Shown here one piece after another: positions 702-63,871 of a stretch of DNA of 64,000 nucleotides. The stretch's first letter is position 1. Each line of letters opens with the position of its first letter. The translations under genes were made by a program, and so were the position numbers. The notes beneath the pieces are model-generated. The model saw nothing but the letters and a program-made list of their open reading frames with translations. It ran no database searches and was not told the DNA's origin. Source of the stretch: Pseudomonadota bacterium (GTDB lineage Bacteria > Pseudomonadota > Gammaproteobacteria > Burkholderiales > Rhodocyclaceae); the NCBI GenBank assembly GCA_018261895.1, contig JAGTRT010000022.1, positions 1 through 64,000 of the forward strand, read 5' to 3'.

Positions 702-734
702 ACGGTCAACCGGAAAAAATAGCCAAAATCGAAA
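702..734 (+). repeat. Dispersed repeat copy R1 (ACGGTCAACCGGAAAAAA family)
   Basis: The exact core ACGGTCAACCGGAAAAAA lies at 702-719, seven bases after the cysN stop. It is followed by the weaker tail TAGCCAAAATCGAAAA. It runs straight into a terminator hairpin. The same core recurs at 4343, 17123, 53266 and elsewhere in the window. Confidence 0.85.
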
Positions 735-760
735 ACGCCTCCAAATCCGGAGGCGTTTTT
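733..760 (+). terminator. Rho-independent terminator of cysN
   Basis: The arms CGCCTCC (736-742) and GGAGGCG (749-755) are extended by A-T pairs and close a six-base loop. A run of T residues follows. It sits 40 bases after the cysN stop. Confidence 0.88.
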
Positions 761-905
761 TATTTCGGACGGTCGCAATCGGCCACGGCAGCGCGACTGC
801 GGTGGGTGGGTGATATGCCCCAATTCGGGGGAACTGCCTGCCCCCAACCGGTGCCAGACTGCACAAAAATCGATTTTTCCGTTGTAAAACAAGGATTAGG
901 GTGAA

Positions 906-921
906 TGGCATGTCGCTTGCT
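906..921 (+). promoter_or_regulatory. Sigma54 (-24/-12) promoter of the PEP-CTERM gene
   Basis: TGGCATG-TCGC-TTGCT matches the RpoN consensus TGGCACG-N4-TTGCW, with GG (907-908) and GC (919-920) exactly ten bases apart. It lies 57 bases before the ATG at 979. PEP-CTERM genes of exopolysaccharide-forming proteobacteria are known to use sigma54 with the PrsK/PrsR two-component system, so the site fits the gene behind it. A perfect palindrome, AAAAATCGATTTTT, lies at 865-878; its role is unknown. Confidence 0.72.
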
Positions 922-978
922 GGGTAAGGAGCAAAACGTCGTTTCAGAATACCGCCCCAACCCCAACCGAGAATCCCC

Positions 979-1860
979 ATGCACAACAACAAGCCGGCGA
1001 TCGCCTTGGCCGTGGCTGCGTCCGCAACACTCTCCGCTCTGTTCTCCCCGTCGGCCCTGGCCGCCCCGGTCAACCTGCCCGCCGACCTGTCGACCTGGAC
1101 CTGCACGGGCAATTGCGGCGCGATGGCCGCTGCCGGCGATGTCGTGGCCTCTCCCCTGAACAACCCGAAGTACGGCTACGTCACGACCTTCAACTCGAGC
1201 AGCACGGGCGTCTCCCCGCTGGCGCTCGATGCCAACAACCGGGGCAACGGGACCGAGACGAATGGTTCGAAATTCGTGTCGAGCAGCTTCAGCGTCCAGG
1301 CGAACGACCAGCTGAACATCCATTTCAACTACGTCTCGACCGACGGCAAGGGCTTTGACGATTACGCCTAGGCCCGCCTCCTCAACGCCAGCGACAACAG
1401 CTTCGTGGCCTGGCTGTTTACGGCGCGCAGCTCGAATTCGGCCACCGGCAACATCGTCCCCGGCGACGTGGTGAGCAAGAAGGATTTCGACCCCGATGTG
1501 ACGATCACGAATTACAAGGACTTCGTCTTTACCTCCAAGACCACGGCCGACCCGGTCAACTGGTCGCCGCTCGGCGATTCGAACGGCACCTGCTGGCGCG
1601 ACAACGCGCCGGGCTGCGGCTTTACCGGCTGGCTCGAGTCGTCCCACACCTTCGCCAGCGGCGGAAGTTTCAAGCTCGAAATCGGCGTTACGAACTGGGG
1701 CGATGCGGCCTACGATTCCGGCCTCGCTTTCGATTACCAGAACCTGAACGCGGCCAACCTCGCGGCGGTTCCCGAGCCGAGCGTCTACGCCATGCTGCTG
1801 GCCGGCCTCGGCCTGCTGGGCCTGAGCATGCGCCGCTCGGCACAGCGCTCGGCCTTGTAA
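979..1860 (+). pseudogene. PEP-CTERM sorted exported protein (NF038132-like), interrupted by an in-frame TAG
   Basis: Two open stretches in the same frame (979-1371 and 1372-1860) together make a normal PEP-CTERM protein of about 293 residues. It has a signal peptide ending near SALAAPV, a beta-rich extracellular body, and the C-terminal sorting signal VPEPSVYAMLLAGLGLLGL followed by basic residues. Such signals direct proteins to the exosortase system. The TAG at 1369-1371 falls in FDDYA-stop-ARLLNA. As I recall the family, this position is tryptophan (DYAWARLLD), so one G-to-A change in TGG explains the stop. No frameshift is present and the downstream half looks well conserved. It is either a recent nonsense mutation, a base-call error, or an amber codon that is read through. 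A stem-loop follows at 1895-1923. Confidence 0.8.
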
Positions 1861-1894
1861 AAGCCGCGCCGACCAATGCCCGGCACGCCGCACC

Positions 1895-1926
1895 GGCCCG
1901 GCCACCTGACGGTGGGCCGGGCCTTA
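1895..1926 (+). terminator. Terminator hairpin after the PEP-CTERM gene
   Basis: A GC-rich stem (GGCCCGGCCACC pairing with GGTGGGCCGGGCC, one bulged G) closes a TGAC loop. It ends in a short T-rich stretch. It lies 35 bases after the stop codon. Confidence 0.7.
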
Positions 1927-2038
1927 TTCATTGCCGGCTGTTCAGGCTCGGCCAATCCCGGCTAACATAGGCGCTGTGCGCGCTCCGCGCATTTTTGTCG
2001 CGTCTTTGCGAGACCGGTTGCCGATGTGAGTTTCCAGC

Positions 2039-2854
2039 GTGCGTGTTCTGATTGTTGATGACAACGCCTCGATGCGGGCGATGCTGACGTCCCTGCTCTC
2101 CAGCCAGGGCTACCAGATGGTGGGCGCGCTGGAGGACGGCAATGGCGTCATCGAGGCCATCCGCCAGCATTCGCCGGAAATCGTCTGCCTCGACTACGAA
2201 TTGCCGGGGCGCAACGGGCTCGACATCCTGGGCGAGATCAATTCGACCTTTCCGAAGATCGACGTCCTGTTCATCACCGCCTCCGAGTCGCCGGACATCG
2301 AAGCCAGGGTCGCCGATGCCGGCGCCGCCGGCTTCCTGCGCAAACCCTTCGGGCAAAAGCAGGTCATCGACGAACTGCAGCAGGTGTGCGACACGCGTCG
2401 CCGCGCCTCGCTGGCCAAGGCAACGGAGAGCGCCCCTGCGGCCAGCGCCACGGCAGCGACTGCGCCCAAGGCCGCCCGGCGCAGCAGCGAGCGGCCCACT
2501 GCCGTCATCGCCGACGACAACAGTTCGGTGCGCCTGCTCATCAAGGGCCTGCTGGCCGAGTTGGGGATCAACGTCGTCGGCCAGGCTGCCAATGGCGAGG
2601 AAGCCGTTCGCGCCGCCCAGAACCTGAAGCCCAGTGTCATTTTTCTCGACGTCAACATGCCCATCATGTCGGGTCTTGAGGCCTTGCCGAAAATCATCGA
2701 AACTTCGCCCAGGACGGCGGTGGTCATGGTCACCGGCGACACCTCGCGGGCCATCGTCCAGCAGGCGGCCGGACTCGGTGCGCGGGGCTACATCGTCAAG
2801 CCGGTGCGGCCGGCCTATGTCGAGAATTTCCTGAAACAGCTGTTCAATCGCTGA
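2039..2854 (+). CDS. Response regulator with two receiver domains
   Basis: The 271-residue protein consists of two CheY-like receiver domains joined by an Ala/Thr-rich linker (about residues 124-150) and has no output domain. Receiver 1 (1-118) shows the acidic pair D7-D8, phospho-acceptor D52 (VCLDYELPG) and the conserved lysine in LRKPFG. Receiver 2 (about 152-271) shows ADDN, IFLDVNMP with its phospho-acceptor, a conserved threonine in VMVTGD, and KPVRP. It starts with GTG; no ATG fits the receiver N-terminus. Eighteen bases separate it from the HDOD gene behind it, so the two are probably co-transcribed and work in one signalling route. No kinase is adjacent, so its phosphate donor is unknown. 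Confidence 0.88.
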   Translation: MRVLIVDDNASMRAMLTSLLSSQGYQMVGALEDGNGVIEAIRQHSPEIVCLDYELPGRNGLDILGEINSTFPKIDVLFITASESPDIEARVADAGAAGFLRKPFGQKQVIDELQQVCDTRRRASLAKATESAPAASATAATAPKAARRSSERPTAVIADDNSSVRLLIKGLLAELGINVVGQAANGEEAVRAAQNLKPSVIFLDVNMPIMSGLEALPKIIETSPRTAVVMVTGDTSRAIVQQAAGLGARGYIVKPVRPAYVENFLKQLFNR

Positions 2855-2872
2855 ACCGAGAGGTATGCCTTC

Positions 2873-3733
2873 ATGACCTTGATGATCGATTTTCCCTTCC
2901 CCGGGCCAGGCCCGTGGGTGGATCACTTCAAGACCATCGACATTCCGGTCCTGCGCCATACCGTTCATCAGCTCAACGAGTTACGCGACGCCGCCGAAGA
3001 CATCAACACCCGGCAACTGGCCACCATCATCACGCACGACCCGCTGATGACCCTGCGCCTGTTCCAGACCATGCAGCGGATTCGCTCCAACAGCCAGTCG
3101 CGGGACATCACGACGGTCGAGCGCGCGCTGATCATGATGGGCACCCAGACCTTCTACAACAGCATCGAAAACCCGCCCATCGTCGAACAGCAGCTCAAGG
3201 GCTACCCGAAAGCCATGCTCGGCCTGCTCAAGGTCATCGCCCGCTCGCGCAACGCGTCGCGCTGGGCACTCGACTGGGCGCTGCTGCGCCAGAACGTCAG
3301 CTTCGACGAGATCGCCATGGCTGCGCTGCTCCACGACCTGGTCGAGATCCTGATGTGGTGCTTCGCGCCGAATCTTGCCATCCAGGCCCGCGACCGGCTG
3401 GTCACCGAGCCCGGACGGCGCAGCAGCCAGATCCACCAGGAAGTGTTCGGCAGCACGCTTGACGAGATCGCCGACGAACTCATTGCCTACTGGCAACTCC
3501 CGGCCCTGCTCCGCTCGCTGATCGACCCGGCCAACGCCGAGCTGGCCAATGTCAAGAACGTCCAGCTCGCCGTCGACCTCGCCCGTCACTCGGCCAACAG
3601 CTGGAACGACCCGGCGCTGCCGGACGACTACCGGGCCATCGAAACCCTGCTCCACATTGGTCACAGCAACCTGCTGGAACGTATCGGCGCGCCGGAAGAG
3701 CAGGTTCTGGCCGCCCGCCAGGCGGAGGGATAA
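2873..3733 (+). CDS. HDOD domain signalling protein
   Basis: The 286-residue protein carries an HDOD domain across most of its length. The characteristic start is IPVLRHTVHQLNELR, followed by DPLMTLRLFQTM, ALIMMGTQTF, and DEIAMAALLHDLVEILMWCF. HDOD proteins are catalytically degenerate relatives of HD phosphohydrolases and act in c-di-GMP and two-component regulation. Several are scaffolds rather than enzymes, and the complete HD-GYP metal-ligand set is not seen here. It sits 18 bases after a double-receiver regulator and 3 bases before a DUF4124 gene. A second HDOD gene at 18688-19551 has a similar layout. Confidence 0.85.
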   Translation: MTLMIDFPFPGPGPWVDHFKTIDIPVLRHTVHQLNELRDAAEDINTRQLATIITHDPLMTLRLFQTMQRIRSNSQSRDITTVERALIMMGTQTFYNSIENPPIVEQQLKGYPKAMLGLLKVIARSRNASRWALDWALLRQNVSFDEIAMAALLHDLVEILMWCFAPNLAIQARDRLVTEPGRRSSQIHQEVFGSTLDEIADELIAYWQLPALLRSLIDPANAELANVKNVQLAVDLARHSANSWNDPALPDDYRAIETLLHIGHSNLLERIGAPEEQVLAARQAEG

Positions 3734-3736
3734 GCC

Positions 3737-4303
3737 ATGTTGAAGACCAGCCTCGCACTCGCCCTGCTGGCGCTCAGCCCGCTGGCCGGTGCCGACATTT
3801 ACAAATGCCGGCTGCCGAATGGCTCGACGGAGATCTCAAACACGCCGTGCCCGACCGGCAGCGGCACGATCACCTCGCGCCCGGACGAGCGTGTATCGGA
3901 AGCGTCCCGCCGACAGGCCGAGCAGGAAGTCGAAAAGATGCGGCTTTTCGTCGAAAAACGGGAAGCCGCGCAGCGTGCCGAAGAAGCGGCAGAGCGCGAA
4001 GAGCGCGCCGCCAGCCAGCGGCAAAGCAACAGTGTCAGCCGGACGCCACGTCAATATGGCAGCCAGGACGAATGCCTGCGCGACCTCGAGCAGATGGCCC
4101 TGGAAAGCGCCCAGCGCGCCCAGATGGAGGCCGATTGCCGGGCCATCGCCAGACCGCAGACCATCTACGTTCCTGTCCCCGTGCCGGCCTATCCGACGCA
4201 CCGACCGCATCACGTCGAGCCACCGCTACAGCCGAAGCCCGCGCCCAAACCGGCAGCACCCAGCGCGCCCCAGATATCGGCGCCCCAGCTCAAGAAAAAC
4301 TAG
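3737..4303 (+). CDS. Exported DUF4124 domain protein
   Basis: The 188-residue protein starts with a signal peptide (MLKTSLALALLALSPLAGA) and then DIYKCRLPNGSTEISNTPCP, the DUF4124 pattern with a conserved cysteine pair. A charged Glu/Arg/Ala-rich probable coiled coil (about residues 55-100) follows, then a segment with two more cysteines, and a Pro-rich tail (PVPVPAYPTHRP and PKPAPKPAAP). It is expected in the periplasm. Its function is not known. It starts three bases after the HDOD gene, so it is probably in the same transcript. A dispersed repeat copy follows. Confidence 0.8.
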   Translation: MLKTSLALALLALSPLAGADIYKCRLPNGSTEISNTPCPTGSGTITSRPDERVSEASRRQAEQEVEKMRLFVEKREAAQRAEEAAEREERAASQRQSNSVSRTPRQYGSQDECLRDLEQMALESAQRAQMEADCRAIARPQTIYVPVPVPAYPTHRPHHVEPPLQPKPAPKPAAPSAPQISAPQLKKN

Positions 4304-4342
4304 GCGCTTACCAGCCCTTTTTCCCCGCCTGAGCCGAATTTC

Positions 4343-4377
4343 ACGGTCAACCGGAAAAAAAGCCCAAATTCGAAATC
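4343..4377 (+). repeat. Dispersed repeat copy R2
   Basis: The exact 18-base core ACGGTCAACCGGAAAAAA lies at 4343-4360, followed by the tail AGCCCAAATTCGAAATC. It fills most of the gap between two convergent genes and ends five bases before the stop of the minus-strand gene. GGCGCTTACC, 40 bases upstream of the core, is also found 32 bases upstream of copy R5. Confidence 0.85.
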
Positions 4378-4381
4378 CGGA

Positions 4382-4696
4382 TCAGACCGTTTCGTGGCCG
4401 CCGCCGTCTTTTTCCTGGCGGCCCAGCGTCAGTTCGGTGTTCTCGCTGAGCGCGAAGAAGAAGGCATCGACGGCATTCGGCTCGCCCGACGCAGCAAAGG
4501 TCGTCTGCCCGCACTCGCACTGACCGACCCAGATCGCATCGAGGCCGCGCAAGCCGCGCGTGCTGACCGGGTTGATGGTCGTCACATCGGCGCCGCAACC
4601 GTTGCACACCAGCTTTTCCGGACGGGTCGCTTCGATCTTGGCTTGCGCCTGGGCAATGCGGTCCGCCAGCGAACCCCGATTTTTGGCCTGTCCCAT
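4382..4696 (-). CDS. Conserved small protein with cysteine pairs
   Basis: The 104-residue soluble protein begins MGQAKNRGSLADRIAQAQAK. It carries CNGCG at about residue 34 and CECGQ at about residue 65, which could bind zinc. Similar MGQAKNRG proteins occur in betaproteobacteria, but I know of no assigned function. The ATG at 4696 is preceded by GGAG at normal spacing; a TTG five codons upstream lacks such a site and was not chosen. The gene is convergent with the DUF4124 gene. Confidence 0.75.
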   Translation of the reverse strand: MGQAKNRGSLADRIAQAQAKIEATRPEKLVCNGCGADVTTINPVSTRGLRGLDAIWVGQCECGQTTFAASGEPNAVDAFFFALSENTELTLGRQEKDGGGHETV

Positions 4697-4758
4697 GTCT
4701 TTACTCCGCAATTTTCAAAGGCTGGCAGGATACAGGACTTGCCCCTCCGGCGGCCAGC

Positions 4759-5928: not shown

Positions 5929-6010
5929 AGGCAGGAAACCGGCAATGCAACTTGGGTATGACTTTCAGCATAGAGCAAGGTTCCTTTCAAGCGCAACAGG
6001 GATAACCACG

Positions 6011-6733
6011 ATGTCGCGAGCCCCTGGCCTATGGCAATATGCTGGCATGCATGCCTTGCCCCACCTCTCGCTCATCGACTGGATTTCCCTGGCCATTTTC
6101 TTTGCCAGTTGGGCCGGCTACGCCTGGTACTCCGAGCACAGCCAGTGGGGGGCGAACGGCCTGATCCACACCAGCCAGGGCTATCGCCTGCAGTGGGCCT
6201 ACCGCATGCTGGAACGCGACCTGCGCGTGGCCGATTCAACCTTGATCGGCAACCTCGTAACCAGCGTCTCCTTCTACGCCAACACGACGATCTACATCAT
6301 CGCCGGCCTCGTTGCGGCGCTCGGCGCCTCGGACAAGCTGCTCAGTTTTACAGCGGAACTACCCTTCGGCGGCGCCGGCAACCGCGAGCTGCTCGAAATC
6401 AAGCTCATGCTGCTGCTCGCCTCGTTTGTCTTCGCCTATTTCAAATTCACCTGGTCGCTGCGCCAGTTCAACCTGCTCTCCATCCTCGTCGGCGCTGCGC
6501 CGCTCGGCAAAACGGGCGAACCGGGCATCGACACCTACGCCAGGCGCGTCGCCGGGGCCAATAACCTGGCCGGCGACGACTTCAACCGCGGCATCCGGGC
6601 CTACTATTTCGGCCTCGCCGCCTCCGGCTGGCTGCTCAACCCTGCCCTGCTCGGGGCGCTCGCCATCGTCGTGCTGGTCGTGCTCTTCCGCCGCGACTAC
6701 CGCTCGCCGGCGCTGCAACTGCTGCGCGACTAA
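6011..6733 (+). CDS. DUF599 family membrane protein
   Basis: The 240-residue protein has about four membrane segments (near residues 22-42, 88-112, 132-152 and 210-230). It matches the DUF599 layout, with YRLQWAYRMLERDLRVADSTLIGNLVTS in the first loop and FNRGIRAYYFGLA before the last helix. The function of the family is unknown. The ATG at 6011 has AGGGA eight bases upstream; the ATG at 6047 (MHALPHL) is an alternative that fits the family length better. The frame is open well upstream, but that part reads across the divergent diguanylate cyclase gene and is not believed. rarD starts three bases after the stop. Confidence 0.82.
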   Translation: MSRAPGLWQYAGMHALPHLSLIDWISLAIFFASWAGYAWYSEHSQWGANGLIHTSQGYRLQWAYRMLERDLRVADSTLIGNLVTSVSFYANTTIYIIAGLVAALGASDKLLSFTAELPFGGAGNRELLEIKLMLLLASFVFAYFKFTWSLRQFNLLSILVGAAPLGKTGEPGIDTYARRVAGANNLAGDDFNRGIRAYYFGLAASGWLLNPALLGALAIVVLVVLFRRDYRSPALQLLRD

Positions 6734-6736
6734 ACC

Positions 6737-8986: not shown

Positions 8987-10324
8987 ATGTCCCGTTTCCT
9001 CATCTACGCCATTGTCTTCATCGAAGGCTTCTGCTCGCTCGGCGCCGAAGTCATCGCGCTCCGGCGGCTCGTGCCGCACATCGGCAGTTCCATCGTCGTC
9101 ACGGCGCCGACCATCGGCTTCTTCCTGCTCGCGCTGGCGCTCGGTTACGCCTCGGGCGCCAGGGTCGCCGGCAACTACCTCAACATCGTCGCCCGCAATT
9201 TCCTGATCGCCGCCGCGCTCGCCGGCATCGGGCTGGCCGGCATCAGCGTCGACTGGATGTTCGCCCACCTGCAGCCGGTGCTCGTCGCCTACCTTGTCTT
9301 CATCGGCGGCGTGCTCTGCCCGCTGGCCTGGCTGCTCGGCCAGACCGTGCCAATCCTGACCAACCTCATGAAAGCCGAACGCACCGGCGAGGCGAGTGGC
9401 CTGGCTCTTTACTGGTCTACGCTCGGTTCCTTCCTCGGCTCGATCAGCCTATCGCTGCTCGTCATGCAGTGGCTCGGCGTTTCAGCGGCGGTCTTCGCCT
9501 GCGCCTTCGGGCTTCTCGTCGGCGCCGTTTTGCTAGCCGGGAAAAATTTCAAATTTTGGCTTTTTTCCGGGTTGACCGTGGGATTGTCTGCCGGACTCAA
9601 TCTGCAGCATGCCGTGACCGCCGACACGGCCTACGCCGAATACCTCATCGGCGCCGTCAATCTCCCGGGCCAGAAAGACCCGCGCGCCTTCTGGGTCAAC
9701 AAGTCGACCGCCTCGCTCATCGACAATTCCGAGCCGCCCAACTACACGCGCTACATCAGGCACCTGCGGCAGATCCTGCTCGACGACCTCGGCTTCTTCG
9801 ACAAGGACATCCTCGTCCTCGGCGCCGGCGGCTTCACGCTGTCGCACCGCGAACCGCTCAACCGCTACACCTACGTCGATATCGACCCGGCCATCAGGGA
9901 CATCGCCGAAAAGCACTTCCTGCGCGAACCGGCCCGTGGTGAATTCATCACCGACGACGCCCGCCGCTTCGTGGCGACCAGCGAACGTCGCTTCGACGCC
10001 GTCGTCGTCGATGTCTACAGCTCGCACACCTCGATTCCCAGCCACCTCGTCACCCGCGAGTTCTGGGCCGGCACGCGCCGCGTCCTCAAGCCGGACGGCG
10101 TGCTGCTCGCCAATCTGATCCTCGACGGCAAGCTCGAAAGCCCCTACGCCCGTAGCCTGCTCGCTACCATCGACAGCGTTTTCGGCCGCTGCGCCGTCGA
10201 CGTGCTGCACAAAGGCAAGGCGCTGGCCAACGTCGAAGTCAGCTGCTTCGCGAGCAGCCAGCCCAGCGAAACGGGCATCTACGTGGATGAGAAAAACCGG
10301 GCCGACCTCGACCGGGCAAAATGA
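8987..10324 (+). CDS. Membrane-fused spermidine-synthase-like protein
   Basis: The 445-residue protein combines an N-terminal membrane part with several helices (about residues 1-210) and a C-terminal class I methyltransferase-like, spermidine-synthase fold (about 235-430). The fold has the nucleotide-binding motif ILVLGAGGFTLS followed by YTYVDIDPAI, then FITDDARRF and DAVVVDVYSS. Such fusions exist in many bacteria and their aminopropyl-transfer activity is mostly unproven. Residues about 185-200 (KNFKFWLFSGLTVG) are encoded by a reversed copy of the dispersed repeat (R3) and fall in the last hydrophobic segment of the membrane part. Convergent with the small gene that follows, two bases away. 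Confidence 0.82.
   Translation: MSRFLIYAIVFIEGFCSLGAEVIALRRLVPHIGSSIVVTAPTIGFFLLALALGYASGARVAGNYLNIVARNFLIAAALAGIGLAGISVDWMFAHLQPVLVAYLVFIGGVLCPLAWLLGQTVPILTNLMKAERTGEASGLALYWSTLGSFLGSISLSLLVMQWLGVSAAVFACAFGLLVGAVLLAGKNFKFWLFSGLTVGLSAGLNLQHAVTADTAYAEYLIGAVNLPGQKDPRAFWVNKSTASLIDNSEPPNYTRYIRHLRQILLDDLGFFDKDILVLGAGGFTLSHREPLNRYTYVDIDPAIRDIAEKHFLREPARGEFITDDARRFVATSERRFDAVVVDVYSSHTSIPSHLVTREFWAGTRRVLKPDGVLLANLILDGKLESPYARSLLATIDSVFGRCAVDVLHKGKALANVEVSCFASSQPSETGIYVDEKNRADLDRAK
9541..9579 (-). repeat. Dispersed repeat copy R3, inside a coding sequence
   Basis: Read on the minus strand this is ACGGTCAACCCGGAAAAAAG (one extra C), then CCAAAATTTGAAATTTTT. It lies wholly inside the spermidine-synthase-like gene, opposite to the direction of transcription. 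It is translated there as a hydrophobic stretch (FKFWLFSGLTVG). Confidence 0.8.
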
Positions 10325-15500: not shown

Positions 15501-15704
15501 TTCGTGCTCGGCGTCTTCCCGCTGGTCAAGGCCACCGGCGCCGGCGCTGCCGCCCGCCAGTCGATGGGGACCGGCGTCTTCGGCGGCATGCTCGCCGCCA
15601 CCTTCATCGCCACCATTTTCGTGCCGCTCTTCTTCAAGTGGCTGGAACGTGGCAAACAGATCGACCCCTCGCACTTTGAAGCGAACGAGGAGGAAAAAGC
15701 ATGA
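12582..15704 (+). CDS. RND multidrug efflux pump, inner membrane subunit (AcrB/MexB, HAE1)
   Basis: The 1040-residue proton-driven trimeric transporter has the standard length for hydrophobe/amphiphile efflux pumps. It starts MSRFFINRPIFASVISIIIVIAG (first membrane helix). Both periplasmic loops are complete, and the proton-relay helix carries the essential aspartate pair in GIVVDDAIVVLENVERLM. The second half has QIGLVVLIGLASKNAILIVEF and RLRPIIMTS. The closest well-studied relatives are AcrB, MexB and TtgB, pumps for antibiotics, dyes, solvents and detergents. Its own substrate range cannot be read from sequence. Confidence 0.96.
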   Translation: MSRFFINRPIFASVISIIIVIAGLVASQVLPIAQYPQIAPPTVLITATYPGASAETLAKTVAAPIEEQLNGVENMVYFNSSATANGTVTITATFEVGTNVDMAAVNVNNRVKAAEPRLPESVRRNGVIVQKRSNDILQVVALKSDGGKYSTLYLSNYASLNIVDELKRVKGVGDVTIFGAQDYSMRVWLKPDRMAQLGLTSAEVAAAISAQNAQNAAGKIGQEPAPNDQQLVYTVTAKGRLLTEEEFGNIVIRASGPGGLLRLKDVARIELGAYSYDQRVTLDGQPTIAMGVFLQTGANALEVAEAVRVKMVELKAKFPEAMDYVIPFDTTRFVSASIKEVRNTLIEAMILVLAVVFLFLQSWRATLIPMVAVPISLIGTFAGLWLFGFSINTLTLFAMVLAIGIVVDDAIVVLENVERLMAEEKLPPKQAAIKAMHQVTGALIAIVLVLVSVFVPVAFLGGIAGQLYKQFAVTVAVAVVLSGVVALTLTPALCALLLKAQHTENKLFAPFNRLFERLTNNYTRTVGLTMRHGIIGTLVFAAVIGVTVFFFRVIPGSFVPAEDQGYLISALILPDGATLKRTEKTGEGMRQMIAQDEAVKHTFIVSGFDLIGGGNKPNAGTMFIPLKDWSERQGKAQDLAGKFMGIGMMQPDGMGLVFNPPPIMGLGTAGGFEVYVQNRVDGDARRLNEVTQNFMEELKKHPEFTRISTFFRPTVPQLFVEVDEQKALALGIPVADIYSTLQSTMGALYVNDFNKAGRVYRVQLQAEAPYRMKPDDIGKVYVRSTTTNAMIPLSAVSRVKNIVGPEQVERFNGFIAAKVMGDSKPGVSSGDAIKIVEEVANATLPDGFGISWTGQAFQEKRSSGSSAQAFGFAIIMVFLILAAQYEKWSLPVAVVMAVPFALMGALTAIWLRGMPNDIYFQIGLVVLIGLASKNAILIVEFAAQKYAEGMSAADAAIEAARLRLRPIIMTSLAFVLGVFPLVKATGAGAAARQSMGTGVFGGMLAATFIATIFVPLFFKWLERGKQIDPSHFEANEEEKA

Positions 15705-17104
15705 TGCCCCGCATCGCAACCCGACTGACCCCGCTGGTCATCGCGCTGGCCATGGCCGGCTGCGCCCTCGGCCCGGACTACGTGCGCCCGGCGGCGCCGC
15801 TGCCGGCGGCCTACGCCGAAGCTGACCAGAACGCCGAGCAAAGCCTCGTCAATCCGCGCTGGTGGACGCTGTTCCAGGACGCCGACCTCGACGATCTCGT
15901 CGACCAGGCCCTGAAAAACAACGCCGACCTGCGTCAGGCCATCGCCCGCGTCGAGCAGGCCGATGCCGTCGCCCGCGAGGCCGGCGCCGCCCTCCTGCCG
16001 GCAATCAACGGCGATGCCGGCATCACGAACTCGAAGGCGAGTACCCGGACGTCGACCTACGTGTCGACCATGCCGCGCATCCGCCATTCGCGCAGCGCAG
16101 CGCTGAGCACCAGCTACGAAATCGACATCTGGGGCCGCGCCCGCCGTACCCGCGAGGCCTCGCAGGCCGCGCTGCTGGCCAGCGAGTATTCGCGTGACGC
16201 CATCCGGCTGTCGATCGCCGGCCTGGTCGCCAGCAACTACCTGGCCCTGCGCGCCCTCGACGCCCAGCTGGCGGTCAGCAGCGAAACGCTGGCCAGCCGC
16301 GAGGAAAGCCTGAAACTGGTGCGCAGCCGCAACGACGCCGGCCTGGTTTCGCCGCTCGACCTACATCAGGCCGAAAGCAGCCTGGCCGCCGTCCAGGCCC
16401 AGCAGGCCGACCTGCGTCGCCAGCGGGCGCTGACCGAGCACCAGCTGGCGCTCATCGTCGGCCAGCCGGATCTCAAGCTGGCGCCCGGCGACGTGCGTCA
16501 ATTGCCGCTGCCGCCGGCGCCGCCGGCCGGTCTGCCGGCCCAGCTCGTCGAGGCCCGCCCCGACGTTCGCCAGGCCGAGCAGGAGCTGGTCGCTGCCAAC
16601 GCCGGCATCGGCGTCGCCAAGGCCGGCTATTTCCCGCGCTTCACGCTGACCGGCAGTCTGGGCAGCGAGAGCAAGGCTCTGGGCGACCTCTTCTCGGCTG
16701 GCGCTGGTACTTGGGCGCTGGGTCTCGGCGCCACGGTACCGCTGCTCGATTTCGGCCGAACCACGGCGCGCGTCGACCAGGCCAAGGCGCTCACTCAGCA
16801 ATCTCTGATCGGCTGGGAACAGACGCTACAAACGGCCTACAAGGAAGTGCGCGACGCGCTGGTCAGCCTGCGCGAGAACGGCGAGGCCGAAACGGCGCAA
16901 GGCAAGCGCTACGTCGCCGCCAAACGCTCGCTCGACCTGGCCAACCTGCGCTACGAATCGGGTTACGTCGGCTACCTCGAGGTACTCGATGCCCAGCGCA
17001 GCAGCAACGACGCCCTGACCGCCCTGATCGCCACCCGCCAGGCCCGCCTGGCCTCGGCGGTCGATCTGTTCAAGGCGCTCGGTGGCGGCTGGAAGCCGGA
17101 ATAA
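15701..17104 (+). CDS. RND efflux outer membrane channel (OprM/TtgC/NodT family lipoprotein)
   Basis: The 467-residue TolC-like channel completes the tripartite pump. The signal peptide ends with the lipobox MAGC, followed by ALGPDYVRPA, a typical OprM start. Two outer membrane factor repeats follow (about 60-250 and 270-460), with VEARPDVRQAEQELVAANAGIGVAKAGYFPR at the repeat junction. The ATG overlaps the pump stop (ATGA at 15701-15704) and is preceded by GGAGG, so translation is coupled. Dispersed repeat R4 and a bidirectional terminator follow. Confidence 0.94.
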   Translation: MMPRIATRLTPLVIALAMAGCALGPDYVRPAAPLPAAYAEADQNAEQSLVNPRWWTLFQDADLDDLVDQALKNNADLRQAIARVEQADAVAREAGAALLPAINGDAGITNSKASTRTSTYVSTMPRIRHSRSAALSTSYEIDIWGRARRTREASQAALLASEYSRDAIRLSIAGLVASNYLALRALDAQLAVSSETLASREESLKLVRSRNDAGLVSPLDLHQAESSLAAVQAQQADLRRQRALTEHQLALIVGQPDLKLAPGDVRQLPLPPAPPAGLPAQLVEARPDVRQAEQELVAANAGIGVAKAGYFPRFTLTGSLGSESKALGDLFSAGAGTWALGLGATVPLLDFGRTTARVDQAKALTQQSLIGWEQTLQTAYKEVRDALVSLRENGEAETAQGKRYVAAKRSLDLANLRYESGYVGYLEVLDAQRSSNDALTALIATRQARLASAVDLFKALGGGWKPE

Positions 17105-17122
17105 GCCGGAATGGGCAATTTG

Positions 17123-17151
17123 ACGGTCAACCGGAAAAAATGCCCAAAATC
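17123..17151 (+). repeat. Dispersed repeat copy R4
   Basis: The exact core ACGGTCAACCGGAAAAAA lies at 17123-17140, followed by TGCCCAAAATC. It begins 18 bases after the channel gene stop and runs into a bidirectional terminator, the same arrangement as copy R1 behind cysN. Confidence 0.85.
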
Positions 17152-17177
17152 AAAAAGCCGGCGAATGCCGGCTTTTT
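17152..17177. terminator. Bidirectional terminator between the RND operon and rlmB
   Basis: A perfect 11-base-pair stem, AAAAAGCCGGC / GCCGGCTTTTT, closes a GAAT loop. It has a T run on each strand, so it can end transcription of the convergent genes on both sides. Confidence 0.9.
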
Positions 17178-21996: not shown

Positions 21997-22017
21997 CAGT
22001 TCTTCTTTCTCTATAAT
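21990..22017 (+). promoter_or_regulatory. Consensus sigma70 promoter of tRNA-Leu
   Basis: The -35 box TTGACA (21990-21995) and -10 box TATAAT (22012-22017) are both perfect matches, 16 bases apart. The tRNA begins 20 bases after the -10 box. The -35 box overlaps the rnr start codon on the opposite strand (21994-21996). Confidence 0.88.
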
Positions 22018-50795: not shown

Positions 50796-52046
50796 GTGAC
50801 GCCTGATTTCACTTTCGTTTTTCTCGTTTTTTTCCTGTTGACCGTCACAGTCCGCCTGTGGCTCAAGCGTCGGCACATTCGCTTCGTAGACGCGCATCGC
50901 AACGCCGTACCGGCCGACTTCGCCGAACGCATTGCCCTCGCTGACCATCAAAAAGCCGCCGCCTACACGGTGGACCGCAGCAAGATCGCCATGGTCGGCA
51001 CCCTGATCGAGGCGGCCATGTTGATTGCCTTCACGCTGGGTGGCGGCCTCGCGGCGCTGCACGATATCTGGTCGGTCCGCCTTGACGGCCTCGCCTACGG
51101 ACTGGCGATGATTTTCAGCCTGATGTTCATTTCCGGCCTGATCGACTTGCCGCTATCGCTCTACAGCCAGTTCGTGGTCGAGGCTCGCCACGGCTTCAAC
51201 CGCATGACGCTGGGCCTGTTCTTCACGGACTTGCTCAAGCAGACCGTGCTGGGCGTCGCCATCGGCGCCCCGGTCATAGCCGCCGTCCTTTGGCTCATGG
51301 GCGCGATGGGCGAATACTGGTGGCTTTACGTCTGGCTGTTCTGGAGCGGTTTCAACCTGCTCATCATGTTCGTTTACCCGACCTGGATTGCACCGCTCTT
51401 CAACAAGTTCTCGCCGCTCGAAGAGGGTGAGATGAAATCGCGCATCGAGGCGCTGCTGGGGCGTTGCGGCTTTCGCTCCTCGGGCCTCTTCGTGATGGAT
51501 GGCTCGAAGCGTTCCAGCCACGGCAACGCCTATTTCACGGGCTTTGGCAACAACAAGCGGATCGTCTTCTTCGACACCCTGCTCGCCCGCCTCGCGCCGA
51601 CCGAGGTCGAGGCCGTGCTGGCCCATGAACTGGGTCATTTCCGGAAAAAGCACGTGGTCAAGCGCATGGTCCTGATGTTCGCCGGATCGCTCGGTTTTCT
51701 CTGGCTGCTCGGCCAGTTGATCGACGCCCCCTGGTTCTATGCCGGGCTCGGCGTACCGGCGCAGAACACGACGTTGGCGCTGATCCTGTTCTTCCTTGTC
51801 ATGCCGGTATTCACCTTCCCGCTCAGCCCGCTGATGAGCCACTTTTCCCGCCAGCATGAATTCGAGGCGGACGCCTATGCGGCGGAGAATGCCTCGGCCG
51901 ACGATCTCGTGCACGCCCTGGTCAAGCTCTATCAGGACAATGCTTCTACCCTGACGCCCGACCCGCTACACTCGTTGTTTTACGACTCCCATCCACCGGC
52001 AGCCCAGCGCATCGCGCACCTGCAAGCCCAGGAGAATCCCGCATGA
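50796..52046 (+). CDS. M48-family membrane metalloprotease (Ste24/CAAX-protease type)
   Basis: This 416-residue zinc protease has an N-terminal membrane domain (about 1-190, several helices) of the M48 N-terminal family. The catalytic part carries HELGH (in [15 protein letters not shown]) and the distal zinc ligand in [10 protein letters not shown]. Eukaryotic Ste24 relatives cut prenylated proteins; bacterial members probably process or degrade membrane proteins. The start is GTG. The codons for residues about 11-17 (VFFLLTV) overlap a weaker reversed copy of the dispersed repeat (R8). It overlaps the cytochrome gene by four bases. Confidence 0.88.
50827..50845 (-). repeat. Possible degenerate repeat copy R8 in the M48 protease gene
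   Basis: Read on the minus strand this is ACGGTCAACAGGAAAAAAA, one mismatch from the core (A for C). It is followed by a less similar A-rich tail. It is read as hydrophobic residues in the first helix of the protease. Since Leu/Phe-rich helices favour such bases, it could be chance. Confidence 0.45.
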
Positions 52047-53223: not shown

Positions 53224-53265
53224 GACGCAGCCTGGCGCTTACCGGGACCGGCAATTCGCGATTTC

Positions 53266-53300
53266 ACGGTCAACCGGAAAAAAAGCCCAAAATTGAAATT
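53266..53300 (+). repeat. Dispersed repeat copy R5
   Basis: The exact core ACGGTCAACCGGAAAAAA lies at 53266-53283, followed by AGCCCAAAATTGAAATT, the fullest form of the tail. It lies 43 bases after the rsgA stop. A small AT-rich hairpin (GGTTTTT/AAAAACC, 53311-53329) follows, without a T run. Confidence 0.85.
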
Positions 53301-53429
53301 TGCCCGATAAGGTTTTTTCCCCAAAAACCGCCCCAGAGCGTCGGAAAGCGTTTTCCGCCATAGCTATTTTTCGGCCTTAAGGTGATAATTTTGTGAAATT
53401 CGCCATTAAAAGGCGACTGGAGACAGCGA

Positions 53430-54515: not shown

Positions 54516-54518
54516 GAC

Positions 54519-57944: not shown

Positions 57945-60900
57945 GCGCCCGTCCCTCCAATACGCTCCGTGAGATCATGACCCGAAACGTGCGCAGCCTG
58001 CCGACGGATGCGACGCTCTTCGATGCTGCCCAGTTGATGTCACGAGAGCATATTTCCAGCCTGGTCGTCATGGGCGATGGAGAAGTACAGGGCATCATCA
58101 CCGAAAGCAACATCCTGCGGACCCTGCACGAACACCAGTCGGGCGAGGTGCAACTGCATGCCATCATGTCGCGTCCGGTCATTACGGCGCCAGCCGAACT
58201 CGACCTGACCAGCGCCCGGCAACTCGTCGAGGACAACGGGATACGTCACCTCATTGTCACGGAAGACGACGGCACCCTCTGCGGCATTGTCAGCGAAACC
58301 GATTTCCGCCTCCATCTGGGCACGGATGCCTTTCGCCATTTGCGGACGCTGGATGGCGTCATGGACCGCAACATCCCGCAACTGCCCCCCGATGCAACGC
58401 TGGGTGAGGCGCTGGCCAGCATGGTCAGACACTCGTCGGACTACCTGATCGTTTCCGAAGGCGACCATGCGCTCGGCATCATCACCGAACGCGACATCCC
58501 GCGTCTGATCACGGCTTACCAGGAGCCGCATCGCGCCAGCCTGCGCGAGACGATGAGCGCCCCCTTGCGCAGCATCCATGTCTCCGCCTCGGTCAGCACG
58601 GCGCTGGAAACGATGAATGTATTTCATCTCCGGCACATGGTTGTCCTTTCGCCCGACGACAGCATCATTGGCGTCATCAGCCAGCACCGCCTGTTTGAGC
58701 AGTTGGCACTGGACCGCCTCGAATCCGCCTTGCTGCACGCCCAGAAGGAACGCGAACGCCTGCGCCTCGAGACGCACCTGCGCCTGGCGCTGGACGGCGC
58801 TGCTGCGGGCAGTTGGGAATACAGCCACCGGACCGGCTGCCTGATCGCCAGCGATGGCTTGCTGACGATACTGGGGCTGACGCGGGAGAACGCCCCCGAA
58901 ACAAAAATGGCGTGGATGAACCTGATCCACCCCGATGATCGTCACCTGCTGAGCAAGCCGGCAAACAACGACAAGGACCACAAGGGTCACTCCCGGGTCG
59001 TCGAATACCGGATCATGCATTGCGACGGCAACTGGCGCTGGGTGGAAGACCGCAGCTGCATCGTCGAACGCAATGCCGACGGCAGCCCCAGCGTCACCGC
59101 CGGTGTCGTCAATGACATTACCGAGCGCCAGCATACCCGCCAGCAGATCACCCGCCAGAATCGCGCCTTGCGCATGATGAGCGGCGTTTCCCAGGCACTG
59201 GTTCGCCACGACGACAAGCAGCGGATGCTGGCCGACGTTTGCTCGGTCCTCGGCGAGATCGGTGGCTACTTCATGGCCTGGATCGGCGAGATCGTTGACG
59301 GCGAAAAACTCGTCCTGGCGCCCATGGCCAGTGCCAACGCCGGCAGCACTGAGCCCTCATTGGCGGATTTGTTCGGCAACGATGTCTCGGCTTTTCAGGC
59401 ACTCGGGCAACGCGCGATACGCAGTGGCGAACCGGCTATCGCCGTCGATGTCGAGAAGGATCCCTCCTTCAAGGCATGGCGAGCGACGGCTCAGGCCCAG
59501 GGAATTCGTTCGGCCATTTCGCTGCCGCTCTACGTCGACGGCAAGATCATTGGCGTCCTGAATCTCTACGCGACGACGGCCGACTGCTTCGACCAGGAAG
59601 AGGTGGCACTGCTTTCCAGCGTCTCAGGCGAGCTCAGCCTGGGTCTGGGCATGCAAAGCTCCAGACAGACCCTGGCGCAGAGCGAGGCGATGCTCCTGCA
59701 GGCCCAGCGCCTGGCCCGGCTTGGCCACTTTACCTTCGATACCGCCAGCGACAAATTGACCGGCTCGCCGACGCATAACGAAATATTTGGCATCCCCGAA
59801 AATGAACGCCTCGATACCGAAGGCTGGCGTCAACTGATCCACCCCGACGACCGCGAGCGGATGAGCAATTACTCGCGCGACCATGTATTTCGGGGCGGCC
59901 AGCCTTTCGACAACGAATACCGGCTGGTTCGCCGCAGCGATGGCGAAGAGCGCTGGGTACATACCGTCGGACACCTTGTCTATGGCAGCGATGGCCGGGT
60001 CAGCCGCCTCTTCGGCACCAGCCAGGACATCACCGAGCGCAAGCAATTCGAGCAGCGCCTTAGCCAGAGCGAGGCCGAGCTCAAGGAAGCCCAGGCCGTC
60101 GCCCATCTCGGCAGCTGGACGCTCGACATCGTCAATGACATCCTCAACTGGAGCGACGAGGTCCATCACATCTTCGGCCTCCCCTTCGATCATCAGCTGC
60201 GGCTGGCCGATTTCCTGGCCTGCATCCATCCTGACGATCGCGAACGGGTGCAGGCCGACTGGCAGGCTGCCCTGAAAGGGGCCAAGTACGACAGCGAGCA
60301 TCGAATTTTCGTCGACCAACAGGTTCGCTGGGTACGCGAGCGGGCCCACGTCCGTTACGACGATTCCGGAAAAGCCGTTTTTGCCGTCGGCACCGTGCAG
60401 GACGTTACCGAGCGCCACCTGGCGGAAGAGCAGTTGAGCAAGCTGTCGCTGGCCATCGAGCAGAGCCCGCACAGCATTGTGATTACCAATGCGAAGGCCG
60501 ACATCGAATACGTCAACGAAGCCTTCGTGCTCAATACCGGGTACAGCCGCCATGAGGTCATTGGTTCCAATCCGCGCGTCCTGCATTCCGAGGAAACGCC
60601 GAAGGAAACCTTTGCCCAGATGTGGAAGACCCTCGTTTCCGGGCAGACCTGGCGAGGCGAGTTCATCAATCGGCGCAAGGATGGCTCCACCTTCACTGAG
60701 TTCGCGATCATTTCGCCGGTTCGCCAGCTCGACGGTCAAGTCACGAATTACCTCGCCATCAAGGAAGACATTACCGAGAAGAAGCGGAACCAGTCGGAAC
60801 TGGAAAACTATCGCCATCATCTCGAAACCCTGGTGGCCGAACGGACCGAGCAGCTGATTTCGGCCAAGGAAGAAGCCGAATCGGCCAGCCGCGCCAAGAG

Positions 60901-62623
60901 CGCCTTCCTGGCCAACATCAGCCACGAGATCCGGACGCCGATGAACGCCATCATCGGCCTCACCCACATTGCCCAGCGCAGTGCCGGCAGCAGCGAGCAG
61001 CAGGAACGCCTGGGCAAGGTGGCGGAGGCGGCGCAACACCTCATGAGCATCATCAACGATGTGCTCGACATTTCGAAAATCGAAGCCGGCAAGCTGCAAC
61101 TGGAAAGCACCGTCTTCTCGCTGGCCCATATCTGCGAAAGCACCTGCGAAATGGTCGCCGAGCGCGCCCATGCCAAGAATTTGCCGGTCAAATACCACCT
61201 CGATCCGAGCGTCCCCGCCAGCCTGTTCGGCGACCCCCTGCGGGTGCAGCAGATCCTGCTCAACTTCCTGTCAAACGCGATCAAATTCACCCATCGCGGC
61301 TCGATCGATGTCCGCATGAAACTGCTCAGCCAGCGAGGCGGCAATGCCGTGATTCGTTGCGAAGTCAGCGACACCGGTATCGGCATCACGCCGGAGGCCA
61401 TGACCAAGCTTTTCCTGCCGTTCGAGCAGGGCGACACCTCGACCACCCGCCGCTACGGTGGCACCGGCCTGGGGCTCGCGATCAGCCGCCGCCTGGCCGA
61501 AGCGATGAACGGTGAAATCGGCGTTGACAGCCAGATCGGCAAAGGCAGCACCTTCTGGTTCACGGCCCAGTTCGGCGTGACGAACGAGCGCGAAGCTTCG
61601 CCCGCGCCGGGTGCCGGCAAGGCCAGCACCTATCAGCGGGGTGCGCATGTGCTGGTTGCCGAAGACAATGCCATCAATGCCGAAGTGGCCAGCGAACTGC
61701 TGCAGACCGCCGGCTTCAAGGTCGACCTCGCCGAAAACGGTGCCCAGGCGCTCGAGCTCGCGCGTCGACGCCACTACGACCTCGTGCTCATGGACATGCA
61801 GATGCCGGTGATGGATGGTCTGGAGGCGACCCGCCAGATCCGCTCGCTGCCTGGCTGGAGCAAGATTCCGATTCTGGCCATGACGGCCAACGCCTTCGAC
61901 GAGGACCGCGACGTCTGCCTGGCAGCCGGCATGAACGACCACGTCGCCAAGCCGGTCGCCCCGAACGTGCTCTACGAAGCCCTTGCCCGCTGGTTGCCGA
62001 CCAAGGAACCGGCGCCGCCCGCGGTCGAAGTCAAAGTTGCCAGCGGTAATGAACTCGCCGGCATTTCCGGCCTGGACGCCCATTTCGGCCTGCAATCGGT
62101 ACGCGGACGGATGGACAGCTACCTCCGGCTGCTGAGCAAATTCTCGGAACACCATCAGGACGACTTTGTCGGCATCCGCAAGAACCTGGCGAACGGGAAT
62201 ACAGCAGAAGCCCGGCGCCTGGCCCATTCGCTCAAGGGCGTTTCGGCCACGCTCGGTGCGGTTCACATCAACAAGACCTCGATGGCCCTGGAAACGGCCA
62301 TCAAGGAAGAGCGGACGATGGCCGAGATCGAGCCGCTGATCGTCGCGGCGGAAGAAGCCTACTCGTCCCTGTGCCGCGATCTGGCGGCCGTTTCGCAACC
62401 GCAGGAGTCGGCCGACGAAGGCGTCGATGCCGCCGCCACCGCGGCGCTCGTCGAAAAACTCCGGCGCGAATTGCAGCAGGGTGAAATGAGTGTGCAGGAT
62501 CTCGTTCGCCAACACGCCCGCAGCCTGAGCAAGCACATCGGCGACAAGTACCGGGCCTTCGAGGAGTGCATCTTTGCCTTCGACTTCGAAGGTGCGCTGG
62601 CCATCCTCAACGACGGCAACTGA
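57941..62623 (+). CDS. Cytoplasmic hybrid histidine kinase with four CBS domains, PAS and GAF sensors
   Basis: This 1560-residue protein has no membrane helix. Domains in order: four CBS repeats (about 10-65, 72-130, 140-190, 200-260), PAS (280-400), GAF (415-560), three PAS (590-705, 715-825, 835-950), HisKA ([16 protein letters not shown]), HATPase_c ([16 protein letters not shown]), receiver ([13 protein letters not shown]) and Hpt ([13 protein letters not shown]). A C-terminal helical piece of about 60 residues closes it. CBS pairs usually bind adenine nucleotides, so the kinase may read cell energy state along with PAS/GAF signals. The ATG at 57941 overlaps the upstream stop as ATGA; an earlier in-frame ATG lies inside the previous gene. 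Confidence 0.92.
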
Positions 62624-62638
62624 GCTGGCGGGGACGGC

Positions 62639-63871
62639 CTAGCCCGCCTGCCCTTCCAGCCAGCGTGCGGCCCCCAGTCCGGCAGCGCGGCCGCTGGCGA
62701 AACAGGCGGTGAGCAGATAGCCGCCGGTCGGCGCCTCCCAGTCCAGCATCTCGCCGGCGCAAAAAACGCCGGGCATGCGGCGCAGCATCAGCGACTCGTC
62801 CACCGCCTCGAAGGTCACGCCGCCCGCCGTGCTGATCGCCTCGTCGATCGGCCGCGTCGCCGTCACCCGCAGCGGCAGGGCCTTGATGGCCGCCGCCAGG
62901 GCGCCCGGCGCATTCAAGCTTGCCGCCTCGCAGCATTCGCGCAGCAAGCCGGCCTTGACGCCCTCGATGCCGGCATGACGGCGCAGATGATTGGCCAGCG
63001 AATCGCGCCCGCGCGGCCGCGACAGGTCGGCGAGCAGGCGTTCGTGGCTGCGCCCGGGTGCCAGATCGAGGTGGAGGACGGCCGAACCGTCACGGGCCAG
63101 CGCATCGCGCAAAGGGGCCGACACCGCGTAGATCAGGCCGCCCTCGACGCCGGTCGCCGAAATATTGAATTCGCCCTTTTTTTCCGGTTGACCGTCAAAT
63201 CGGGCCGTAACCGCCTTGACCGGAGCGCCGGCGAAACGCTCGCTGAAATACGGGCTCCACGCCACGTCGAAACCGCAATTGGCCGGCTTGAGCGGCGCCA
63301 CGTCGATGCCGCGATCGGCCAGCATGGGCACCCAGGTGCCATCCGAACCGAGCTTGGCCCAGCTGCCGCCACCCAGCGCCAGAATGACCGCATCGGCGTG
63401 GACGACAATCTCGCCGGCGGGCGTTGCGAAGCGCAGGCTGCCGTCGGCCGCCCAGCCCAGCCAGCGGTGGCGCACATGAAAGCTCACGCCCTGCCCGCGC
63501 AGGCGGTGCAGCCAGGCGCGCAGGAGCGGTGCCGCCTTCATTTCGGAGGGAAAGACCCGGCCCGAGGTGCCGACGAAGGTATCGATGCCCAGCCCGTGGA
63601 TCCATTCGCGCAGTTGCGTCGGGCCGAAGGCGTCGAGCAGCGGCGCGATCTGCGCCGAGCGCTCGCCGTAGCGCCCGATGAAATCGGGCAGCGGTTCGGC
63701 GTGCGTGATGTTCATGCCGCCCTTGCCGGCCATCAGGAACTTGCGGCCGACCGAGGGCATGGATTCGTAAATTTGAATAATTTTCCGGTTGACCGTCAAA
63801 TCGCTGGTCGCCAGCATTTCAGCCGCCATGAGCCCGGCCGGACCGCCGCCGATGATGGCGACGCGCTGCAT
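62639..63871 (-). CDS. FAD-dependent oxidoreductase of the TIGR03862/BaiN type
   Basis: The 410-residue flavoprotein starts with the FAD-binding motif AIIGGGPAGLMAAEML and continues MPSVGRKFLMAGKGGMNITHAE. It ends GVFCAGEMLDWEAPTGGYLLTACFASGRAAG, matching the HI0933/BaiN group of uncertain substrate. Two copies of the dispersed repeat lie inside the gene in the sense direction but in different frames. R7 encodes DLTVNRK after the first helix, and R6 encodes FDGQPEKK in the middle domain. The ATG at 63871 is chosen; the frame stays open to the window edge (acidic VTVIPLDEEEIPEELL), so a longer protein or an upstream gene in the same frame cannot be excluded. Confidence 0.85.
   Translation of the reverse strand: MQRVAIIGGGPAGLMAAEMLATSDLTVNRKIIQIYESMPSVGRKFLMAGKGGMNITHAEPLPDFIGRYGERSAQIAPLLDAFGPTQLREWIHGLGIDTFVGTSGRVFPSEMKAAPLLRAWLHRLRGQGVSFHVRHRWLGWAADGSLRFATPAGEIVVHADAVILALGGGSWAKLGSDGTWVPMLADRGIDVAPLKPANCGFDVAWSPYFSERFAGAPVKAVTARFDGQPEKKGEFNISATGVEGGLIYAVSAPLRDALARDGSAVLHLDLAPGRSHERLLADLSRPRGRDSLANHLRRHAGIEGVKAGLLRECCEAASLNAPGALAAAIKALPLRVTATRPIDEAISTAGGVTFEAVDESLMLRRMPGVFCAGEMLDWEAPTGGYLLTACFASGRAAGLGAARWLEGQAG
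63161..63198 (-). repeat. Dispersed repeat copy R6, inside the flavoprotein gene
   Basis: On the minus strand the exact 18-base core lies at 63195-63178, preceded by ATTTG as in R4 and R7. It is followed by a less conserved A/T-rich tail. It is translated as RFDGQPEKKGEF. Confidence 0.83.
63770..63799 (-). repeat. Dispersed repeat copy R7, inside the flavoprotein gene
   Basis: On the minus strand the first 16 bases of the core (ACGGTCAACCGGAAAA) are exact, then TTATTCAAATTT. It is translated as DLTVNRKIIQI, one frame different from R6 in the same gene. Confidence 0.82.

Follow-up and report, generated by a model that had tools for sequence, protein, structure and literature searches.

A dispersed repeat with a CGG core and phased A-tracts is a putative DNA uptake signal in Azonexus

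Which function accounts for a short repeat that recurs on both strands of a 64-kb stretch of DNA from a member of the Rhodocyclaceae (positions 1 to 64,000 of contig JAGTRT010000022.1; the window hereafter)? An initial annotation of the window had proposed that the repeat, an 18-mer, could be a mobile element, a DNA uptake signal, a chromosome-organization signal, or a transcript-end element. We assessed its abundance, anatomy, and distribution, and from these sequence features we consider that it is probably a DNA uptake signal of natural transformation, the option that best fits the anatomy. The genus of the genome that contains the window (G000) and the 76 genomes of this genus were taken to be Azonexus/Dechloromonas (Azonexus hereafter). 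Three papers, PMC1626085, PMC7811141, and PMC12616744, are cited from excerpts.

Abundance and anatomy of the element

With up to 3 mismatches allowed, the 18-mer had 8 matches in the window, at the positions initially annotated to within one base. In dinucleotide shuffles of the window the mean was 0.03 and the maximum 1, which upholds the annotated rarity by chance. The family also reached beyond the window, as found with the genome-wide count that the annotation had suggested as a check: the draft genome G000 (3.30 Mb, 93 contigs, 85% complete) contained, with up to 2 mismatches allowed, 402 copies (205 forward and 197 reverse), and the reversed-pattern control gave 0.

The anatomy of the element was assessed in 462 kb, consisting of the window and 20 further stretches of G000 (398 kb) that lay within contig bounds known from matches and were otherwise taken irrespective of element position. 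A frequency matrix of 66 sites (up to 3 mismatches) identified the 18-mer as the middle of an ungapped motif of ~40 bp, from about −6 to +33, with the consensus [A][A/T]T[C/T][C/T]nACGGTCAACCGGAAAWWWnGCCCAAAATTGAAAT, in which a GC-rich core (ACGGTCAACCGG) is followed by A-tracts ~11 bp apart. This matrix both bore out and sharpened the extended form described at the outset (ATTT before the core and GCCCAAAATTGAAA after it). Columns outside the motif were flat, and the flanks had nothing in common. When the 462 kb were scored with the matrix, which was derived from the same 66 sites that it scores, there were 74 matches at ≥8 bits, 72 at ≥16 bits, and 68 at ≥40 bits, and none in the reversed sequence.

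AT segments were located at +12 to +17 and at +23 to +27 in G000. The first tract was AAAAAA in 44 of 68 sites and AAATTT in 12, and consisted entirely of A and T in 63. A TpA step was present in 2 of these 63 tracts, versus a mean of 23.6 and a minimum of 15 in 1,000 column shuffles. Avoidance of TpA is a mark of stiff, narrow-groove A-tracts. Copies of the 15-mer ACGGTCAACCGGAAA with 0, 1, 2, and 3 mismatches numbered 50, 14, 8, and 24, respectively, in the 462 kb; an excess of perfect over singly mismatched copies is an anomaly described for the uptake signal sequences (USS) of Pasteurellaceae and the DNA uptake sequences (DUS) of Neisseriaceae (PMC1626085). The mean spacing of copies in G000 was 6.5 kb, and 25 of 49 pairs of neighboring copies were on the same strand. 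No strand bias or polarity along contigs was seen in the sampled G000 stretches, nor was there a bias in the genome-wide strand counts. Some copies formed close inverted pairs (L025, 7353/7389; G000 contig 41, 21670/21696).

Placement of copies relative to genes

Genes were called with a simple codon-usage caller made for this analysis, which gave 89% coding sequence. Of 72 sites, 34 were in genes, in all frames (20 on the strand of the gene and 14 on the opposite strand), and 38 were intergenic (22 between tandem, 12 between convergent, and 2 between divergent genes, and 2 at stretch edges). Per-base density was ~9-fold higher between genes (~11% of the sequence) than within them. Spacers of at least 60 bp were, by length, 51% tandem, 30% convergent (12,310 of 41,580 bases), and 19% divergent. 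Because convergent spacers make up 30% of intergenic bases, the 12 of 36 placeable copies found there are close to background; the copies thus avoid divergent spacers, without clear enrichment at convergent ones.

These data bear on two regulatory readings. A transcription terminator or 3′-end processing element, which corresponds to the transcript-end option of the initial annotation, would agree with the 12 intergenic copies between convergent genes, with the 46 of 72 flanking gene ends that were 3′ ends, and with the hairpin-like sequences that adjoin the window copies at 702 and 17123. Against it, the convergent share was near background, nearly half of the sites were genic and in both orientations, and a strict hairpin plus T4 within 60 bp accompanied only 4 of 38 intergenic sites (a lower bound, as only perfect stems were counted). 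We regard this function as very unlikely. The conserved core and the intergenic enrichment could also suit the binding site of a genus-wide global transcription regulator, but only 2 of 38 intergenic copies lay between divergent genes, and the number of genic copies and totals of up to 798 copies per genome argue against it as well, leaving it a slim chance.

Distribution and dialects in the genus

The exact 18-mer was present in at least 97 stretches of named genome contigs. Among the 80 loci listed, 44 were titled Azonexus, Dechloromonas, Azonexaceae, or Rhodocyclaceae, 35 only Beta- or Gammaproteobacteria, and 1 Pseudodesulfovibrio. The last (L102, CAMYLL010000183.1, positions 2711 to 2728) is perhaps a binning error. 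The order Rhodocyclales, assumed in the initial annotation, is consistent with these titles. In a collection of viral contigs, one exact 18-mer only was found (L328:9696-9713, in a 37.6-kb contig), with a partial extended motif.

At up to 1 mismatch, G000 and 59 relatives were searched, and the 18-mer was found 346 times in G002, 109 times in G003, 44 times in G005, and 42 times in G033, at most 18 times in the remaining genomes of the genus, and not at all in 24 genomes of 24 other genera. With the stricter pattern RCGGTCRACNNNNWWWWNNNNNNNWWWW, applied to 399 genomes of the order including G000, 36 to 614 copies were present in all 6 genomes of the genus, versus at most 3 in the 393 genomes of other genera (7 of them of the same family), for which the reversed control reached up to 8. 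Within this sample of the order, the element was thus restricted to the genus. With the relaxed core CGGTCRNC, the 76 Azonexus genomes contained ≥80 copies in 43 cases, 42 to 49 in 3, 23 to 32 in 4, and <20 in 26, so that 46 of 76 (33 of the 51 genomes classed as good) had ≥40 copies, with at most 6 in the reversed control. Relaxation of the core raised counts from 6 to 266 in G028, from 23 to 321 in G452, and from 17 to 304 in G464; some of the 30 poor genomes may therefore hide further dialects.

Since dialects were visible (G033 had mostly GCGG), stretches of 14 further genomes of the genus, picked for contig size and model matches and not at random, were sampled, and words were ranked de novo against a Markov model. 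The top overrepresented word contained [A/G]CGGTC in 12 of 15 genomes, and a word of the motif ranked top in 13 of 17 after G028 and G433 had been added; in G013, TGCGGTGGAC was the top word and TGCGGTCAAC the second. Motif words were not among the top de novo words in G017 and G034, and there were none in G433. G028 had a dialect of its own, AATGCTACGGTC[A/G]GC, with 11 matches in 60 kb, the same A-tracts, and a part of the motif as top word. Core dialects were [A/G]CGGTC[A/G]AC or, in G028, ACGGTC[A/G]GC; GCGG prevailed in G033, G019, G008, G010, G014, G029, G031, G023, and G013, and ACGG in G000, G002, G011, and G028, while G030 was mixed (40 A, 34 G).

A free expectation-maximization motif search was dropped because it picked up codon periodicity in G002, G008, G014, G030, G017, and G034 (6 of 15 genomes), and tracts were compared by counts anchored on [A/G]CGGTC[A/G]AC in the 15 genomes. 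An AT peak at +24 to +27 was present in 13 of 15 genomes, with a best column of 77 to 95% AT versus a background of 34 to 42%, and a peak at +13 to +17 was clear in most genomes and weak in G010, G014, and G030; the profile of G013 was based on 13 sites. In G017 and G034, anchored sites showed no excess over the reversed control. The A-tract register was common to the species dialects. In a tree of the flavoprotein encoded at 62639-63967 of the window, in which 4 of 21 inner branches were well supported, ACGGTCAAC genomes grouped with the poor genome G007 and poor genomes were scattered among rich ones, in line with several losses of the motif.

A nucleoid-associated or chromosome-organizing protein that reads its sites through A-tracts would account for hundreds of sites with stiff tracts and for the lack of an element-sized insertion footprint described below. 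The number of congeners with few or no copies and the shifts of dialect would be unusual for an essential organizer, and perfect copies exceed near-perfect ones. In addition, a ~34-kb island in G002 was without a copy of the gapped pattern. The chromosome-organization option of the initial annotation is thus kept at low weight, the lack of strand bias or polarity counting against it, and we consider it unlikely.

Origin of the copies

Two copies lie in the flavoprotein gene, which had a match, in some cases only a distant one, in 29 of 36 searched genomes. At both sites the protein could be aligned in 24 relatives besides G000, which differed by substitutions and small in-frame indels: near 63779, most were 4 to 5 residues (12 to 15 bp) shorter, and near 63178, most were one residue shorter. 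No element-sized gap was present at either copy in the 24 aligned relatives. Among 228 sites in all sampled sequence, 99 were in apparent genes, and 19 of these, which include duplicates of one gene, could be compared with a motif-less relative, giving 103 site-partner pairs. The comparison was made at the protein level, as a DNA-level comparison of 254 sites was noisy owing to misaligned intergenic stretches. Net size differences over the 103 pairs ranged between −18 and +14 residues. The flavoprotein gene accounted for the peaks at +1 and +4, and the one pair at +14 (L119 versus G019), about the size of the element, was poorly aligned. Replacements of equal length were observed as well, e.g., in L250, comEC (L254), L033, and at window position 50810. 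In comEC, copies were located at the corresponding place in G000 (L254:7189-7232) and G002 (L257:3134-3177), and G458 had a segment of equal length without the element there.

In the comparison of orthologous loci that the annotation had suggested, relatives without the motif lack an element-sized gap at the sites compared, and small indels occur in both directions in few independent genes. This comparison argues against a fixed inserted cassette, and gradual mutation would be the simplest reading for this small gene set; a gradual mutational origin has been shown for USS (PMC1626085). The mobile-element option of the annotation is a bad fit. A short non-autonomous element of the miniature inverted-repeat transposable element or repetitive extragenic palindrome type, inserting its own copies, could produce a strong consensus and dispersed copies, but the consensus ends are not inverted repeats, the flanks are unrelated and flat (no aimed search for target-site duplications was made), many copies are genic, and species have their own dialects. 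Together with the motif-less relatives that lack an element-sized gap, this makes such an element extremely improbable.

Likeness to known uptake signals

Neisseriaceae and Pasteurellaceae are described as the only families known to choose self-DNA by a sequence label in the excerpt of PMC12616744, and both are named in PMC7811141. Among the matches listed in Creative Commons-licensed PMC literature, no report of an uptake sequence in Azonexus, Dechloromonas, or Rhodocyclales was found. Two USS types of Pasteurellaceae, Hin (AAGTGCGGT) and Apl (ACAAGCGGT), are described (PMC1626085), and USS AT-tracts are rigid and slightly bent (PMC7811141). Several dialects of the Azonexus element (TGCGGTC...) have the GCGG inner core of the USS, and the element shares with the USS a pair of AT segments ~11 to 12 bp apart on the 3′ side of the core and a strong consensus with perfect copies outnumbering singly mismatched ones. 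Both also lack orientation bias, are enriched between genes yet have many genic copies, occur far above chance (hundreds to thousands in USS genomes), and have lineage dialects and some closely spaced inverted pairs; the segment AAAATTTTGCAAAT of the Apl type resembles AAAATTGAAAT of Azonexus (PMC1626085).

The Azonexus cores differ from AAGTGCGGT and ACAAGCGGT, the first AT-tract is ~6 bp further from the CGG core (our own arithmetic with the numbering of PMC1626085), the motif is longer, the genus is betaproteobacterial, and density in rich genomes is 1 copy per 5 to 8 kb versus about 1 per kb. The exact USS core, the distance of the first tract from it, and the copy density have no counterpart in Azonexus; the other sequence features described for the USS have one, the GCGG inner core in part of the dialects. 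Neisseriaceae are likewise betaproteobacteria with hundreds of DUS copies and dialects by lineage, and a minor pilin of the ComP_DUS Pfam family (PF16732) is encoded by most Azonexus genomes. The DUS itself, with a CTG core in GCCGTCTGAA and, according to the excerpts of PMC1626085 and PMC12616744, no flanking motifs, has no sequence similarity to the Azonexus motif. By analogy, we infer that the element works like a USS yet does not belong to the USS family of Pasteurellaceae. The common CGG core and phased A-tracts suggest that DNA stiffness or bending may be a part of DNA entry.

Competence machinery and candidate receptors

Machinery genes were present in most genomes. Of the 76 genomes of the genus, 71 had the Competence domain of ComEC (51 of 51 good ones) and 67 had ComEA (TIGR00426) above the cutoff; the two good genomes below it were G014 and G467, and matches below the cutoff look like another protein of ~780 to 830 residues. 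A minor pilin of the ComP_DUS family was encoded by 70 of 76 genomes (51 of 51 good ones) and by 0 of 14 control genomes, and on contig 35 of G000 it was part of one pilus cluster with FimT/GspH and PilW. When compared with PDB sequences, the 18 chains that matched this protein were type IV pilins, none of them named ComP. The predicted Pasteurellaceae receptor ComN/PpdA belongs to the FimT family, and the receptor of Neisseria is ComP (PMC12616744); FimT and the ComP-family pilin are therefore both candidate receptors here. The FimT of the pilus cluster (L242, L263-L292) was very divergent in the genus (54% between G000 and G003, versus 82% for the flavoprotein).

Several observations weigh against an uptake signal. 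First, 30 of 76 genomes (18 of 51 good ones) had <40 copies of the relaxed pattern, and in 22 of them the ComEC Competence domain is wholly or mostly contained in a single open frame; the presence of machinery thus does not predict the motif. In the other 8, comEC had no match in 4, looked broken or interrupted in 3 (G017, G034, and G458), and was a fragment in G006. Disrupted comEC genes were also seen in motif-rich genomes, being interrupted by the ~34-kb island in G002 and split over contigs in G008 and G018. Since comEC is broken or split in rich and poor genomes alike, its disruption gives no clear support. Second, six motif-rich genomes (G003, G014, G445, G457, G464, and G467) had no ComEA above the cutoff, among them the single-contig genome G467 with 745 copies. 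Third, matches to the ComP-family pilin and FimT, the latter partly covering the pilin N terminus only, were found in rich and poor genomes alike. Fourth, density is several-fold under the ~1 per kb of USS and DUS. Fifth, few independent genes stand behind the ortholog comparison, small indels are common, and loops are indel prone. Finally, the copy-free gap at 17 to 50 kb of the window holds housekeeping and transport genes (10 genes scanned) and no island.

Two candidate explanations for the rich and poor genomes were not borne out: loss of the motif following loss of comEC, which was broken, interrupted, or split in genomes of both groups, and separation of the groups by the ComP-family pilin or a FimT-like match, as both groups have them. 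The island in comEC of G002 extended from L257:3612 to L258:17310 (contig 33, ~109.6 to 143.3 kb), and the 10 proteins scanned in it included a phage-type integrase, a B-family DNA polymerase (DNA_pol_B_2), and D5/VapE-like, CHAT, DUF4917/SIR2-like, and NADAR proteins. In G458, ~32 kb separated the two parts of comEC.

Proposed mechanism

For the uptake signal that we favor, the receptor of competent Azonexus would be a minor pilin of the type IV pilus or another outer-surface protein, which would bind free double-stranded DNA at the [A/G]CGGTC core together with the stiff, phased A-tracts. The DNA would be drawn in by the pilus, Com proteins would hand on one strand, and this strand would recombine. 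Better-matching fragments would be taken up more often, and recombination would therefore spread better matches, so that small mutations together with biased transmission would build up the motif on either strand, in genic and intergenic DNA alike. A new dialect would arise when receptor specificity shifts, and loss of competence or specificity would lead to decay of the motif. A more specific proposal has, in our estimation, a slightly better than even chance: Azonexus would represent a third family with sequence-specific DNA uptake, having converged on the USS design (a CGG core plus two or three phased, stiff A-tracts) with a radiation of dialects in one genus, and a minor pilin of the fimT-to-comP cluster would be the reader.

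If this is true, an environmental genus with 76 genomes, dialects, and rich and poor relatives would lend itself to the study of how uptake specificity originates, changes, and is lost, and could show which protein reads the label. It would also offer a possible route to transforming denitrifying and perchlorate-reducing bacteria of the Azonexus/Dechloromonas group.

Copies in the window and regional GC content

The copies in the window are given in Table 1.

TABLE 1 Copies of the element in the 64-kb window
Feature	Positions	Strand	Location	18-mer core	Score (bits)
Element copy	694..737	+	Intergenic; followed by hairpin-like sequence with T-run	702-719, exact	59.6
Element copy	4335..4378	+	Intergenic, convergent genes on either side	4343-4360, exact	70.3
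Element copy	9544..9587	-	In gene 8987-10324(+) (spermine-synthase/methyltransferase-like), antisense	9562-9579, 2 mismatches	57.8
Element copy	17115..17158	+	Intergenic, convergent genes; directly past outer membrane efflux gene 15701-17104(+)	17123, exact	66.8
Element copy	50810..50853	-	In M48 peptidase gene 50796-52046(+), antisense	50828-50845, 1 mismatch	43.6
Element copy	53258..53301	+	Intergenic, tandem genes	53266, exact	69.3
Element copy	63160..63203	-	In HI0933-like flavoprotein gene 62639-63967(-)	63178-63195, exact	53.0
Second copy in flavoprotein gene	63761..63804	-	In gene 62639-63967(-)	63779-63796, 2 mismatches	42.4

Positions 22001 to 48000 of the window (26 kb) had a GC content of 0.52 to 0.58, versus 0.60 to 0.68 around them, and were without a good copy of the element. 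Pfam matches in this region included adenylosuccinate synthetase, HisS-like, HflK, HflX-type and EngA-type GTPases, BamB, and RodZ, and there were also transporters. In 5-kb windows, the density of the gapped pattern rose with regional GC content in G000 (Spearman correlation, 0.48; 90 windows), G002 (0.48; 40 windows), and G033 (0.49; 40 windows), and not in G011 (−0.21; 20 windows) or G019 (0.15; 20 windows); sites were too few for the test in the remaining 10 sampled genomes. In G000, G002, and G033, density tracked GC content although the element outside its core is mostly AT-rich. Possible explanations are that the GC-rich core arises more easily in GC-rich DNA or that recently acquired low-GC DNA is without copies, and uptake-driven recombination could itself raise the GC content.

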